This document shows, in pieces, positions 599 to 4,060 of a stretch of 33,374 nucleotides of DNA. Source of the DNA: Nitrospira sp. (GTDB lineage: Bacteria; Nitrospirota; Nitrospiria; Nitrospirales; Nitrospiraceae); contig JAHFEW010000047.1 of assembly GCA_023248215.1 (NCBI GenBank), forward strand, positions 1 to 33,374, read 5' to 3'. The notes under the pieces were generated by a model. That model saw only the letters and a program-made list of their open reading frames with translations. It made no database searches and was not told the origin of the DNA. Both the position numbers and the translations under genes were made by a program. Within the stretch, counting starts at the first letter, position 1. Each line of letters opens with the position of its first letter.

Positions 599-632
599 TA
601 TTGAAGCGAGCGCATCTGTGGAGATTATGGAA

Positions 633-887
633 ATGACGACTAAGACCGAGCTGATGCAGTTTAAGGTTACTCCGCAAGAAAGAACTCCTATCGAGAAATG
701 TGACAAGAAGCAAGGCATGACGGTTTCGGAATACGTGAGGGCTTGCCTGCTCATGGAAATGGTCCTCGATGGCGAAATGCAGGCCTTAAAGATCGTGGCA
801 ACGACCATCGGACGAAAGGCAGTCAAAGCCTTACACAAGCGTGCGGAACAGTTGGAAGCAATCGGAGAAGCTGAACCGAGCAAATAG
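633..887 (+). CDS. Small ribbon-helix-helix DNA-binding protein (MobC/Arc-like)
   Basis: This is a predicted 84-aa protein. A GGAG at 620-623 sits 9 nt before the ATG at 633, which favours that start; GTG 618 and ATG 627 are in-frame alternatives. The N-terminal ELMQFKVTPQER has the look of an RHH beta strand, and KKQGMTVSEYVRACLL is a typical RHH helix-turn-helix segment (GxTxSEYVR). The C-terminal half is a charged helix. Such proteins occur as accessory mobilisation factors and as small repressors on plasmids and integrative elements, consistent with the recombinase remnant directly downstream. DNA binding is inferred from the fold pattern, and whether it serves mobilisation or repression cannot be told from the sequence. 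The central PQERTPIEKCDKKQG part diverges somewhat from the usual charged linker. Confidence 0.65.
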   Translation: MTTKTELMQFKVTPQERTPIEKCDKKQGMTVSEYVRACLLMEMVLDGEMQALKIVATTIGRKAVKALHKRAEQLEAIGEAEPSK

Positions 888-894
888 TAAGTGA

Positions 895-1160
895 GCATCC
901 CCGTGGCAGAGTCTACCGCAGACATTCCGGCGAACTGCTGTCAGGAATCTGGAGAGAGCGGGCGTCTCACGTTCTGCGGCCATGAAATTGACCGGCCACA
1001 AAACGGAGAGCGTGTATCGTCGTTATGCGATTGTGTCGGAAGCGGATCTGCCGGAAGGAGTGCTCAAACTCGCGAGCTTCAGGACAAGTTCGGGCAAAGC
1101 ACGGGCAAAGCAAATGGTGTCGGTTGGTGGAATGGAAGAGGCAGAAGCGCGTAAGCGATT
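895..1160 (+). pseudogene. Tyrosine recombinase (phage-type integrase) C-terminal remnant
   Basis: In the frame of position 895, directly after a TGA stop, the peptide reads FRRTAVRNLERAGVS (from 925), then AMKLTGHKTESVYRRYAIVS (from 979) and EADLPEGVLKLA. This is the C-terminal catalytic block of tyrosine recombinases: the RR arginine, the TGH histidine and the YRRY nucleophile region are present. The upstream catalytic domain, the usual HD before the arginines and the N-terminal domains are missing, so only about 60 of roughly 300-400 residues survive. There is no start codon or ribosome binding site. The frame runs on without a stop into the tRNA sequences, so the 3' boundary is arbitrary. 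Its position 5-10 nt from a tRNA 3' fragment is where an element's integrase is expected. A remnant is near certain; which element it served is inferred. Confidence 0.85.
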
Positions 1161-1165
1161 GATAA

Positions 1166-1230
1166 TGGTGCCGGAGACCGGGATCGAACCGGTACGGGCC
1201 TTTTGGGCCCGAGGGATTTTAAGTCCAGGG
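1166..1230 (-). pseudogene. 3' part of a split tRNA-Leu (anticodon arm to CCA)
   Basis: Read on the minus strand this gives an anticodon loop CTTAAAA (anticodon TAA), a perfect long variable arm (CGGGCC-CAAAA-GGCCCG), a T arm ACCGG-TTCGATC-CCGGT, an acceptor 3' strand CTCCGGC and an encoded ACCA. The 5' half is absent: the bases before the loop are CCCTGGA and fit the TCCCT arm poorly, and the fragment begins 3 nt after the CCA of the neighbouring intact tRNA-Leu. This is the expected trace of site-specific integration into a tRNA gene. The matching 5' half, with the perfectly complementary AGGGA, is at 3933-3979. Confidence 0.85.
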
Positions 1231-1233
1231 TTT

Positions 1234-1320
1234 TGGTGCGGGAGGCGGGACTTGAACCCGCACACCTTTTACAGTACAGGATTTTAAGTCCTGGGCGTCT
1301 GCCGATTCCGCCACTCCCGC
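1234..1320 (-). tRNA. tRNA-Leu (anticodon TAA)
   Basis: This is a complete class II tRNA on the minus strand. The acceptor stem is GCGGGAG/CTCCCGC, the D region is TGGCGGAATCGGCAGACGC, the anticodon arm is CAGGA-CTTAAAA-TCCTG, a long variable arm follows, and the T arm is GCGGG-TTCAAGT-CCCGC. The discriminator is A and CCA is encoded (TGG at 1234-1236 on the plus strand). It would decode UUA leucine codons. It lies inside the segment flanked by the two halves of another tRNA-Leu with the same anticodon. Confidence 0.96.
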
Positions 1321-1329
1321 ATGCCCCAA

Positions 1330-1371
1330 TTCGGCAACATCCGCAACATTCTGCAACCGCATTCGGCAACA
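1330..1371. repeat. Short GCAAC-containing repeats next to tRNA-Leu
   Basis: TTCGGCAACA occurs at 1330-1339 and again at 1362-1371. The related units TCCGCAACA and TTCTGCAACC lie between them, so GCAAC recurs four times at 9-13 nt spacing. Short tandem sites near an attachment site can be recombinase arm sites, but this is a guess. The tract is also the immediate upstream region of the tRNA-Leu gene. Confidence 0.4.
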
Positions 1372-1445
1372 ACCAACCAGCCCCTACCCCACACAACACG
1401 GTTGCCGGGTGGCAAGGTACCAGCGGGGCTAGTGCGTGTCAATGC

Positions 1446-1844
1446 TCAGGCAAGAAACGAGGGAGGATGAACTTTCGTGCCCCCGCTCTCTGTCCCTCCC
1501 CGCTTCGCTGCCCGTTGCTTCGCACATTTAAGCCGATTGGCTTCCTTCACTTCCGGCCTATGCTTGTTCCTCTGCCACCATGCGCTGATGTGTGCACGGT
1601 GTTGCTCGGGGTGGGCCGTCCTGTACGCGCCGTTGATGACTTTGGCCTTCTCGGGGTCTCCATAGTAGGTAGCCTTTGACCTTGCACGGACACGCTCACA
1701 GTCCTGGCGATGGAATGTGTTCTGTGGTCGGCCCTTCCCCGGTCGATGGAAGTACGCACGAGGCCGGGGCTTGCGGCGGCGGGTGGCGCTAACGGTGGGC
1801 CTTCGTGGCCGCGTCGTTGTGGTAGCCAGGGTCGGTTTCCTCAT
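1446..1844 (-). CDS. Hypothetical basic protein, weakly HNH/phage-like
   Basis: This is a 132-aa frame from ATG 1844 (TTG 1853 is in frame). The protein is very basic. The N-terminal third is rich in Thr, Arg and Pro and may be disordered. The middle contains FHRQDCERVRARSK and then a repeated pattern of the type YYGDPEKAKVINGAYRTAHP and HRAHISAWWQRNKHRPE, which resembles the Arg/Asn/Glu-rich helical segments of phage proteins and of regions near HNH nucleases. No complete HNH motif is seen. The start overlaps the end of the upstream gene by about 56 nt, which suggests coupling or that the true start lies further in. It appears to be the last gene of a three-gene minus-strand cluster beginning at 2463. 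A real gene is likely; the function is unknown. Confidence 0.5.
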   Translation of the reverse strand: MRKPTLATTTTRPRRPTVSATRRRKPRPRAYFHRPGKGRPQNTFHRQDCERVRARSKATYYGDPEKAKVINGAYRTAHPEQHRAHISAWWQRNKHRPEVKEANRLKCAKQRAAKRGGTESGGTKVHPPSFLA

Positions 1845-2118
1845 CGGCAGCAAGCGCCTGGCTTCTGAAGAGAGACACTGTTAGACATCGGACGTGCGCG
1901 CTCAGAAGATGTTCTAAGCCCAGCTCCTGGGCAATCAGTGCCTTGACATCGAACAGCAGCGCGGCAAGCTCGGTGCGCGTGCGGCGGCTCCGCGTGGAGT
2001 CGCGCATATAGGCAAGGCGTGCGGCCCGTTTGGCCTTCTTGGCAGCGTAGCGGTCCTTGAAATACTGGGAGCGGTCTTTGGGGTGCGGCTGGGGCTTCTG
2101 GATGGTCGTAGGTTCCAT
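1789..2118 (-). CDS. Hypothetical basic helical protein
   Basis: This encodes 109 aa. A GAGGAG lies about 12 nt upstream of ATG 2118. The N-terminal half is strongly basic (DRSQYFKDRYAAKKAKRAAR), followed by RRTRTELAALLFDVKALIAQ, which predicts an amphipathic helix. No known domain is recognised. The composition would suit nucleic-acid binding, but that is inference only. It follows the 99-aa gene by 45 nt and overlaps the next gene downstream, forming a probable operon within the tRNA-flanked segment. Confidence 0.55.
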   Translation of the reverse strand: MEPTTIQKPQPHPKDRSQYFKDRYAAKKAKRAARLAYMRDSTRSRRTRTELAALLFDVKALIAQELGLEHLLSAHVRCLTVSLFRSQALAADEETDPGYHNDAATKAHR

Positions 2119-2163
2119 GGTGTGGGTGCTCTCCTCGTTCTGGTTTGTGTGTGGTCCTGTGGG

Positions 2164-2463
2164 TCACTTCCATTCAATAATTGATGCTGCGAATCCTGGC
2201 GGGGCCTGATCGGCGGGCGGTTGGGTACCGTTCATCCCAGCGGTGATGCGATCCACGACATATTTGACGCGGTGAGCTTGCTCCGGATGGGCGGTGAGGA
2301 TTGTCCGCACCTGCTCGGAAAGAGTATCGGCCTGGGTGACGACTGGGGCCACAACGGCGGGCGATTCATCGGCGGGAGTGCCTTCGATGGGGGCGATGGA
2401 TTGCTTGACGACCTTCTTTGACTTGGAGGCTGGGGCTGATTTTTTAGCGGTGACGGCATTCAT
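2164..2463 (-). CDS. Hypothetical 99-aa protein
   Basis: The start at 2463 is preceded by a near-ideal AAAAGGAG with 6-7 nt spacing. The N-terminus is Lys/Ala/Ser rich (MNAVTAKKSAPASKSKKVVK), the middle is Pro/Val rich and probably flexible, and the C-terminal part TLSEQVRTILTAHPEQAHRV predicts helices. No family is recognised. It is the promoter-proximal gene of the minus-strand trio and is divergent from the 55-aa gene at 2606. The first-gene position and strong ribosome binding site argue that it is expressed. Confidence 0.65.
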   Translation of the reverse strand: MNAVTAKKSAPASKSKKVVKQSIAPIEGTPADESPAVVAPVVTQADTLSEQVRTILTAHPEQAHRVKYVVDRITAGMNGTQPPADQAPPGFAASIIEWK

Positions 2464-2605
2464 GTAAACTCCTTTTGGGGTTGGGAATGAGGGTGAAAGT
2501 GGCGGATGCGCTCAAAAGCTCTTGCCAAGTCCGAAACCGTCCGGTAGCGTAATTTTGGGGCCTCAATCACGAGGCCACCACGACCCTACGAGGAGACGAG
2601 AAGCG

Positions 2606-2773
2606 ATGGACAAACAGAAGAGGAATCTTAAAGAGAACCCGGTGCCAGCAGTTAAGCTGTTGGACATGACTGATCTCGATCCCAAAGTGAACAAGGATCG
2701 AATTGCCGGGAGAGAGTTCTTGGAGGCGGAAATAAGGAAGATTCAGAGGGTGTCGAAACAGGGAGGCATGTAG
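2606..2773 (+). CDS. Hypothetical 55-aa charged protein
   Basis: The chosen start is ATG 2606, with AGGAG 10 nt upstream. The open frame extends further 5' but without a ribosome binding site. The product is small and highly charged (MDKQKRNLKENPVPAVKLLD at the N-terminus, then a helix REFLEAEIRKIQRVSKQ) with no signal peptide or known motif. Its TAG stop is followed directly by the ATG of the exported protein at 2774, so the two are probably cotranscribed and translationally linked. The function is unknown. Confidence 0.6.
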   Translation: MDKQKRNLKENPVPAVKLLDMTDLDPKVNKDRIAGREFLEAEIRKIQRVSKQGGM

Positions 2774-3142
2774 ATGAGTATAGTCAGCCAAAGAGGACTG
2801 CTCTCATTTCTAGTCATGATCATATGCGCGGTTGGATGGGTTGTAAGTACCCATGGCGGTTCCGCAGCGGACAACTTAGAACAAGTGGGACGATTCTCTG
2901 TTGTTGCAGCAGATGGATATGCGCTTCTTCTCGACACGAAAACTGGATGTGTGTGGAGCGGGATGGCACTCAAGTCCGAAGGGCCTTTGGGGACCGGCTC
3001 CAGCATTCGAAAATTCGTTCTCATGTCTGTTGAAGGCCTATATTACGTGCCGACCTCTGCTCCTGAGCTTTCGAAGTCTTCCAGAGTAGCGCCCGATAGA
3101 TGTATCTCATTAGCCGTCGGCGAAAAAAGTGGAGGTGGCTAG
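2774..3142 (+). CDS. Predicted exported protein, unknown function
   Basis: This encodes 122 aa and begins immediately after the stop of the 55-aa gene. Residues about 8-32 form a Sec-type signal (LLSFLVMIICAVGWVVSTHG with an AxA-like GSAADN junction). The mature part starts VGRFSVVAADGYALLLDTKT and contains two cysteines, GCVW and DRCISL. The GYALLLDTKTGCVW pattern is common in small bacterial secreted proteins that carry a single beta-hairpin 'variable-tryptophan' motif, but no named domain can be given. A periplasmic or secreted location is inferred from the signal peptide. Confidence 0.65.
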   Translation: MSIVSQRGLLSFLVMIICAVGWVVSTHGGSAADNLEQVGRFSVVAADGYALLLDTKTGCVWSGMALKSEGPLGTGSSIRKFVLMSVEGLYYVPTSAPELSKSSRVAPDRCISLAVGEKSGGG

Positions 3143-3301
3143 CACCGTCCCCGAGGTAGCCGTTGGCCTCTCTTGTTCCATTCCATTACCTTGTTCCTGC
3201 GCCTGTGCCACTTCTTGTCCGCGTGGGTCTCGACCTTTTTGACACCTAAGCCAAAAGGGTGTAGAAGCGATTAGGTAATGTTATTTAAACAAAGGAGCCC
3301 C

Positions 3302-3481
3302 ATGGCCAACTTTAGATACCCACCGGGAAACTTGGTTTGTCCACCATGCTACCGTGACAATGCATCAAAAGATTTTCTAAATCCGTCAAGCAAAGCAACG
3401 GGCGGAATATGCCAAGCGTGTGGCAAGGAAGCTGTTGAGTTGTGGTTTCTGCCTCGTATCTCAATATGCGGGCTACCTTGA
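3302..3481 (+). CDS. Small zinc-ribbon-like protein (59 aa)
   Basis: AAAGGAG lies 5 nt before ATG 3302, so this start is preferred over the upstream in-frame ATG at 3278. The protein has two CxxC pairs, CPPC at residues 14-17 of a short N-terminal part and CQAC about 25 residues later, arranged like a zinc ribbon that holds one metal ion. The C-terminus is hydrophobic (VELWFLPRISICGLP). It is probably cytoplasmic, and any nucleic-acid or protein target is unknown. About 160 bp without a gene separate it from the exported protein upstream. Confidence 0.6.
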   Translation: MANFRYPPGNLVCPPCYRDNASKDFLNPSSKATGGICQACGKEAVELWFLPRISICGLP

Positions 3482-3555
3482 CAGATTCGGGTCTAACACC
3501 TACGCTTCAGGCCGCTTCGCATGGGCTCATTTGTAAACGGAGGGCACCAAGTCTT

Positions 3556-3894
3556 ATGCGCTCTTCAATCACCCTGGTGCTGTTGTGTCTTTCGTTGCTT
3601 TGGACTGCCCCACTTGTCACAGCAGACGATTCAGGAAAGATCATCCTGAAAGAATCTGCAAACGGATCACGGAGCCTTCGCCCCTTTACGATTCAGGACA
3701 AGTGGGAAGTCCGGTGGGATTCAACCGACGTAATATTCATCTACCTACGGACGGAGAAGGGGGAAAAGATTACCACGTTGGCTTCAAGCTTGAAGGCTGG
3801 GAGCGGCCACACGTTCTATCCGAAGGGCGGAATGTATTTCCTTGAGATCAATTCGGGCGCGGATTGGACGATCACGGTGATTCAACTGCCGTGA
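3556..3894 (+). CDS. Small secreted beta-sandwich-like protein
   Basis: The start at ATG 3556 gives a clean 112-aa exported protein: MRSSITLVLLCLSLLWTAPL followed by VTADD, a Sec signal with likely cleavage after the alanine. The open frame extends further upstream but that part has no signal-like or conserved look. The mature domain includes PFTIQDKWEVRWDS, VIFIYLRTEKG, SGHTFYPKGGMYFLEINSG and ADWTITVIQL. This strand-rich pattern ending in a GG-x-YFLxIN hairpin and a W-x-VxV strand recurs at the C-terminus of many bacterial exported proteins of unknown role. Binding or surface functions are possible but not shown. It is the last gene before the 5' tRNA-Leu fragment. Confidence 0.7.
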   Translation: MRSSITLVLLCLSLLWTAPLVTADDSGKIILKESANGSRSLRPFTIQDKWEVRWDSTDVIFIYLRTEKGEKITTLASSLKAGSGHTFYPKGGMYFLEINSGADWTITVIQLP

Positions 3895-3932
3895 TTGGAT
3901 GTGACTTTCCGGCGCACTGCCCTGCCCGTAAT

Positions 3933-3979
3933 CCGAGGGATTTTTAGTCCCTTGCGTCTGCCGATTCCGCCACTCCCGC
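3933..3979 (-). pseudogene. 5' part of a split tRNA-Leu
   Basis: Read on the minus strand this is acceptor 5' strand GCGGGAG, a leucine-type D arm TGGCGGAATCGGCAGACGC, and a complete anticodon arm AGGGA-CTAAAAA-TCCCT, after which tRNA similarity stops. The variable, T and acceptor 3' segments are missing here but occur at 1166-1230. Read literally the anticodon would be AAA; the other half carries TAA, so the single mismatch lies at the anticodon first base. One base pair of the joined acceptor stem would also mismatch (GCGGGAG with CTCCGGC). Confidence 0.85.
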
Positions 3980-4060
3980 AGAAGGAACACTGTCGGGGCG
4001 AAATCTAACATTGGGGTCCCGGGGGGTCAAGCTGCTCCGACTCACCATCACTCTAAAATG

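Follow-up and report, generated by a model that had tools for sequence, protein, structure and literature searches.

We analysed a Nitrospira sp. contig of 33,374 bases (C80; the window is this whole contig, so that its position 1 is a contig end) from a genome of 199 contigs (G000) with an estimated contamination of 3.93%, focusing on a leucine tRNA gene, tRNA-Leu(UAA), that is divided into two separated halves. Read along the minus strand, which carries the features from the promoter to the host 3' half, the locus consists of the native tRNA-Leu promoter, the 5' half of a broken host type II tRNA-Leu(UAA) (R), 2.6 kb of small open reading frames (ORFs), an intact foreign tRNA-Leu(UAA) (tRNA I), the sequence AAACCCT and the displaced 3' half of the host gene (F), followed by a relic of a tyrosine integrase gene and a NikA-like gene. 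The promoter (TTGACC-17-TAGATT; 4002–4030) is marked by a ttagatttcgcc stretch that is kept upstream of the tRNA in relatives carrying either the type I or the type II gene. R, recognized by its sequence, by the genes of relatives and by the fold of the rejoined halves, occupies 3933–3979, beside the promoter, and F, which retains its CCA end, occupies 1166–1226. The interval between them (1227–3932), the putative remnant of an inserted element (E), measures about 2.7 kb including tRNA I, which lies at its end (1234–1320) and is separated from F by a 7-nt spacer (1227–1233).

The original prediction, made from the letters alone, described a tRNA-Leu(TAA) in two halves 2.7 kb apart with an intact tRNA-Leu of the same anticodon between them, the halves sharing an 18-bp anticodon-arm core with one mismatch; all of the features that it stated are in the sequence. 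R ends in the core GGACTAAAAATCCCTCGG (3933–3950), and the version common to both halves, GGACT[T/A]AAAATCCCTCGG, spans the anticodon loop at 3950–3933 and 1226–1209 with the single mismatch, which leaves R with the loop CTAAAAA through a T-to-A change. tRNA I (1320–1234) is the only tRNA found by ARAGORN and the only Rfam match (58.8 bits) in the window. When R and F were joined at the core, ARAGORN recognized a tRNA-Leu(taa) of 90 nt whose anticodon, variable and T stems are complete and whose acceptor has one G.G mismatch, as had been predicted. The predicted gap of 3 nt between the intact tRNA and the 3' half holds for the boundary then assumed (1230), whereas the refined start of F at 1226 gives the 7-nt spacer. 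The joined halves are 93% identical to the type II gene of another genome of the genus (G007), as against 74% for tRNA I, and their similarity to type II tRNA-Leu is far above chance (E = 8e-16 and 1e-27 for the two halves).

Neither junction holds a rebuilt target: R is followed by ATTACGGG without an attached 3' half, and F is preceded by AAACCCT. The first 26 nt of R are identical to tRNA I and not to type II, and R becomes type II-specific only from AAGGGACT on. The original prediction had missed this hybrid start, as well as the likeness of the locus to published tRNA-dependent lysogeny.

The locus was followed across genomes using the lgt gene and the promoter as anchors. The proposed comparison with relatives, looking for a single uninterrupted tRNA-Leu at the site, gave a positive answer: an uninterrupted type II tRNA-Leu(UAA) is present in two genomes of the same genus (G007 and G004) and in four of other genera (G030, G032, G033 and G034). 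Empty sites thus exist among relatives, and the two halves belong to type II tRNA-Leu and not to unrelated tRNAs. All 25 other genomes of the genus in which the locus was read carry type I or its variant I', 22 of them without any type II 3' half. The remaining three genomes (G028, G012 and G001) lack the 2.6 kb and show the promoter, type I, a sequence beginning AAAC and a type II 3' half, which is intact in G028 and decayed in G012 and G001. In G028, the sister of the window genome, the junction of tRNA I, AAACCCT and F is the same as in the window while E is absent, a state that the original prediction did not foresee, since the sister without the 2.6 kb keeps the foreign tRNA and the 3' half rather than a restored gene. 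The genes on both flanks are common to G007, with its type II gene, and G001, a complete single-contig genome with type I and the decayed 3' half; because both flanks are shared, the site in G007 is truly unoccupied and that in G001 is swapped. A tree of lgt placed G000, G028, G012, G004 and the pair of G001 and G007 at the base of the genus without resolving their order, and the other 22 genomes in one supported clade. In that main clade no convincing signal of a type II relic was detected behind tRNA I (1 of 22 at p = 0.003); because no relic is detectable there, we infer, rather than prove, a single ancestral swap.

Outside the genus, a genome of another Nitrospiraceae genus (G073) carries at its lgt locus its own foreign tRNA-Leu(UAA) about 21 nt before the core and a type II 3' half, with the syntenic chromosome conserved beyond the latter. 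The insert upstream of this foreign tRNA (L106, 9707–10229) has a toxin–antitoxin-like gene pair; no host 5' half is present there. Two further loci (L098 in G082 and L094 in G179) show a foreign tRNA-Leu(UAA) with type II remnants about 500 nt and 181 nt behind it, respectively, and the foreign tRNA of G082 has upstream of it a promoter resembling the native one.

A CCA end followed by a short gap and the anticodon core was also searched for as a pattern in public genome contigs and in viral contigs, with ordinary tRNAs filtered by ARAGORN; the genome scan admitted gaps of 0–4 nt and therefore returned mostly ordinary tRNA-Leu genes, and its at least 117 stretches are not a census. Among the matches listed, an intact tRNA-Leu(UAA) about 8–22 nt before the core, with a lone 3' half, was found in Mesorhizobium, Rhizobium, Roseococcus and others. 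For G244, G241 and G243, the contig also includes the host 5' half, which stops at the anticodon-loop core and is located 2.6, 0.8 and 1.1 kb upstream, respectively; for a fourth genome (G240), this half is on a different contig from the rest of the layout. The full three-part layout elsewhere therefore reads as a host 5' half, 0.8–2.6 kb of other DNA, a foreign tRNA-Leu(UAA), 10–21 nt, and the core with the host 3' half. G244 keeps a C-terminal tyrosine-integrase fragment between the halves. Several of these genomes have different foreign tRNAs but an almost identical broken host gene, which makes repeated events likely.

Two IMG/VR contigs, L244 (6442–7656) and L250 (9654–12057), carry an integrase and a tRNA-Leu(UAA) that is separated by 9 nt from a core lacking any tRNA 3' half, an arrangement that is apparently an attP (the phage attachment site) as expected in the unintegrated form. 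A phage-type (T7-like) RNA polymerase gene adjoins the arrangement in both, and the contigs are likely to be temperate podoviruses that use this integration strategy. Across 12 loci, the tRNA CCA end lies 8–13 or 21–24 nt from the core, two classes about one helical turn apart; in this small post hoc sample, the spacing is only a hint of helical phasing.

Based on the anatomy of the window, the uninterrupted, collapsed and swapped states in relatives, the independent copies of the layout and the attP-like phage contigs, E is very probably the decayed remnant of a site-specific element that inserted into the host tRNA-Leu(UAA) at its anticodon loop and whose own tRNA I took over. The original prediction, which had suggested either an element that interrupts a leucine tRNA in its anticodon arm and brings a functional copy with it, or one insertion after another at the same site, is supported by these uninterrupted sites, layouts and phage sites. 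The attP of the element would have contained, a few nucleotides away from a short core, an entire tRNA-Leu(UAA) of divergent sequence, and the element, presumably by means of a tyrosine integrase, would have recombined with the host type II gene at its anticodon loop. Integration would have broken the target instead of rebuilding it because attP carried the whole of tRNA I beside a short core, and tRNA I may then have replaced the function of the broken host tRNA, as in tRNA-dependent lysogeny. Loss of the integrase would have followed. Recombination between the similar 5' halves of the host gene and tRNA I, which are identical over 27 bp in the window, could subsequently delete the element, leaving promoter, tRNA I and 3' half, and would place tRNA I under the native promoter; G028 has exactly that structure, as do G012 and G001. 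With decay of the relic, such a locus would become the clean replacement seen in most of the genus, and the window would keep the intermediate. The match between the first 26 nt of R and tRNA I would be accounted for by gene conversion through the same pairing or by recombinational acquisition.

Direct repeats of the GTTGCCGA type lie just upstream of tRNA I (1329–1374) and are candidate arm-type sites of the integrase, so that the tRNA may lie within attP itself. Direct repeats occur upstream of the foreign tRNA in many such loci; the window alone gives p = 0.015 and 15 sites combined give p ~1.6e-6, a value that overstates independence since some of the sites are related. One ORF of E (1446–1853, minus strand) is weakly similar to a phage endonuclease VII annotation (E = 2e-3), no ORF of E reached the curated cut-off in Pfam, two of them had no relatives among viral contigs, and no phage structural genes were seen. 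Searches of E against phage and plasmid DNA collections matched the tRNA only.

Several observations weigh against this interpretation. No integrase or integrase remnant was matched within E (1227–3932), and none of the 28 other genomes of the genus matched its 2.6 kb at the DNA level, so that the mobility of E itself is only presumed. The match of the start of R to tRNA I requires either gene conversion or recombinational acquisition, and several losses or a horizontal gain are needed because the sister G028 is without E. Another complete type II tRNA-Leu(UAA), in the same bin, lies at the very end of contig C33 (L085, 10489–10578), and because of this gene the loss of function of the host tRNA is not certain. 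A neighbouring gene on that contig is closest to other genera (73%, versus no more than 70% over short stretches for this genus), an indication, although no proof, that C33 is bin contamination. In addition, the window ends at position 1, leaving the left flank of its own genome outside the comparison.

The alternative that survives best concerns only the history of E and not the nature of the insertion. E might be a recent arrival at a locus that already consisted of promoter, tRNA I and 3' half, brought in by homologous recombination from a lineage still carrying the insertion, with the crossover inside the shared 26 nt. The hybrid start of R and the E-less sister, with its identical junction, are both what such a transfer would leave behind; however, the genus genomes searched include no E-bearing donor, and gene conversion of R by tRNA I gives the same pattern without transfer. 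We regard a recent arrival as possible but rather unlikely. A conventional tRNA island could instead have rebuilt the type II gene at one junction and carried an extra tRNA-Leu at its far end, with a later deletion removing the rebuilt 3' half and the integrase and R being truncated after the core by chance. Islands of this kind, leaving an intact gene and a displaced 3' half from about nt 30, are common at this tRNA in the order, and an integrase relic adjoins F in the window. Chance deletion would nevertheless need the same stop point each time, as the 5' halves of G244, G241 and G243 all break off precisely at the anticodon-loop core, without an attached 3' half, and the two phage contigs have no tRNA 3' half beyond the core; we consider this origin improbable. 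A chimeric assembly of two strains present in the bin, which the many contigs, the estimated contamination and the ~27 bp shared by the two 5' halves might suggest, is least probable of all, since the layout recurs in unrelated genomes, in some with all three parts on one contig, and in the complete single-contig genome G001 a type II 3' half follows tRNA I, which a chimera would leave unexplained.

Insertion of an element that breaks the host gene and brings its own tRNA has counterparts among known systems. tRNA-dependent lysogeny has been established experimentally for actinophages (Guerrero-Bustamante and Hatfull 2024, PMC10865867), which, like the element in the window, integrate in a host tRNA gene through a short core without rebuilding the tRNA; one of them, Gaia, uses tRNA-Leu. 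The window differs from them in its Nitrospira-type host, its tRNA-Leu(UAA) target, the position of the element tRNA 7 nt from the core, the state of the element as a 2.7-kb remnant without integrase, and relatives in which the host gene is permanently replaced; function, demonstrated in the actinophages, can here only be deduced from sequence. A site inside a host tRNA gene, a short core without rebuilding and an intact tRNA of the same isotype are present in the window, but a tyrosine integrase of the element is not, and because the integrase is gone we describe the element as a probable remnant of tRNA-dependent integration rather than a full or proven member. According to the available part of a report on Lo5R7ANS-like prophages in tRNA-Leu(UAG) of Sinorhizobium meliloti (PMC11476347), these prophages likewise inactivate the host tRNA-Leu centrally and carry their own isoacceptor, which resembles tRNAs of unrelated bacteria. 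They differ from the window in the UAG anticodon, in the host and in being intact rather than remnants, and that part of the report contains no collapsed or promoter-captured states, unlike the genus studied here. Roseophage CRP-810, as far as the accessible portion of its description goes (PMC11288001), shows the same order of phage tRNA and core, but concerns tRNA-Thr and a whole phage, with integration confirmed by PCR. Conventional islands of the Islander type (PMC4383910) share with the window a tRNA gene as the target of a tyrosine integrase (presumed for the window) and a displaced 3' fragment marking one end; they rebuild the tRNA from island DNA, in contrast to the two junctions in the window. 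We found no description of the closeness of tRNA and core with repeats outside, or of a graded, permanent replacement of a host tRNA across a genus. A literature text search for Nitrospira, genomic island and tRNA-Leu together returned no paper, which is weak evidence.

tRNA genes are usually treated as vertically inherited, and elements that target them are usually deemed harmless because they rebuild the target. At this locus, genomes of one genus show distinct states corresponding to breakage of the host gene, provision of a foreign tRNA and removal of the element, with independent parallels in Mesorhizobium and others, which offers a concrete and testable path for the replacement of a tRNA gene by a mobile element. 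It would also extend tRNA-dependent integration beyond the actinobacterial, rhizobial and marine phages, as far as the available parts of those reports describe them (PMC10865867, PMC11476347, PMC11288001). More broadly, the window may be an intermediate in the exchange, throughout the genus, of the host tRNA-Leu(UAA) gene for the tRNA of a mobile element. Elements with an attP tRNA placed between the integrase arm sites and the core would break the host gene, and recombination between the 5' halves would then bring the foreign tRNA under the native promoter; we give about even weight for and against this proposal, which, if true, would amount to a general and repeatable route by which foreign tRNA genes replace bacterial ones. 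The arrangement provides a simple search signature, consisting of CCA, ~8–24 nt, the anticodon core and a lone tRNA 3' half.

Beyond F, the window carries traces of a separate, conventional island. The C-terminus of a tyrosine integrase, a relic with one stop (838–1071, plus strand), lies beside the tRNA 3' end and is homologous to the integrase adjoining the intact type II gene in G004. A gene for a NikA-like mobilization protein (618–887, plus strand; Pfam PF21983, E = 1.5e-8) belongs to the same neighbouring island. Remnants of conventional tRNA-Leu islands occur in both G000 and G028 (window 838–1166; L084 in G000, contig C50; L086 in G028, contig C555), each a type II 3' half beside a degraded tyrosine-integrase gene with TTTGCCCGTGC repeats nearby, and several islands have probably been stacked at this locus in the two genomes.

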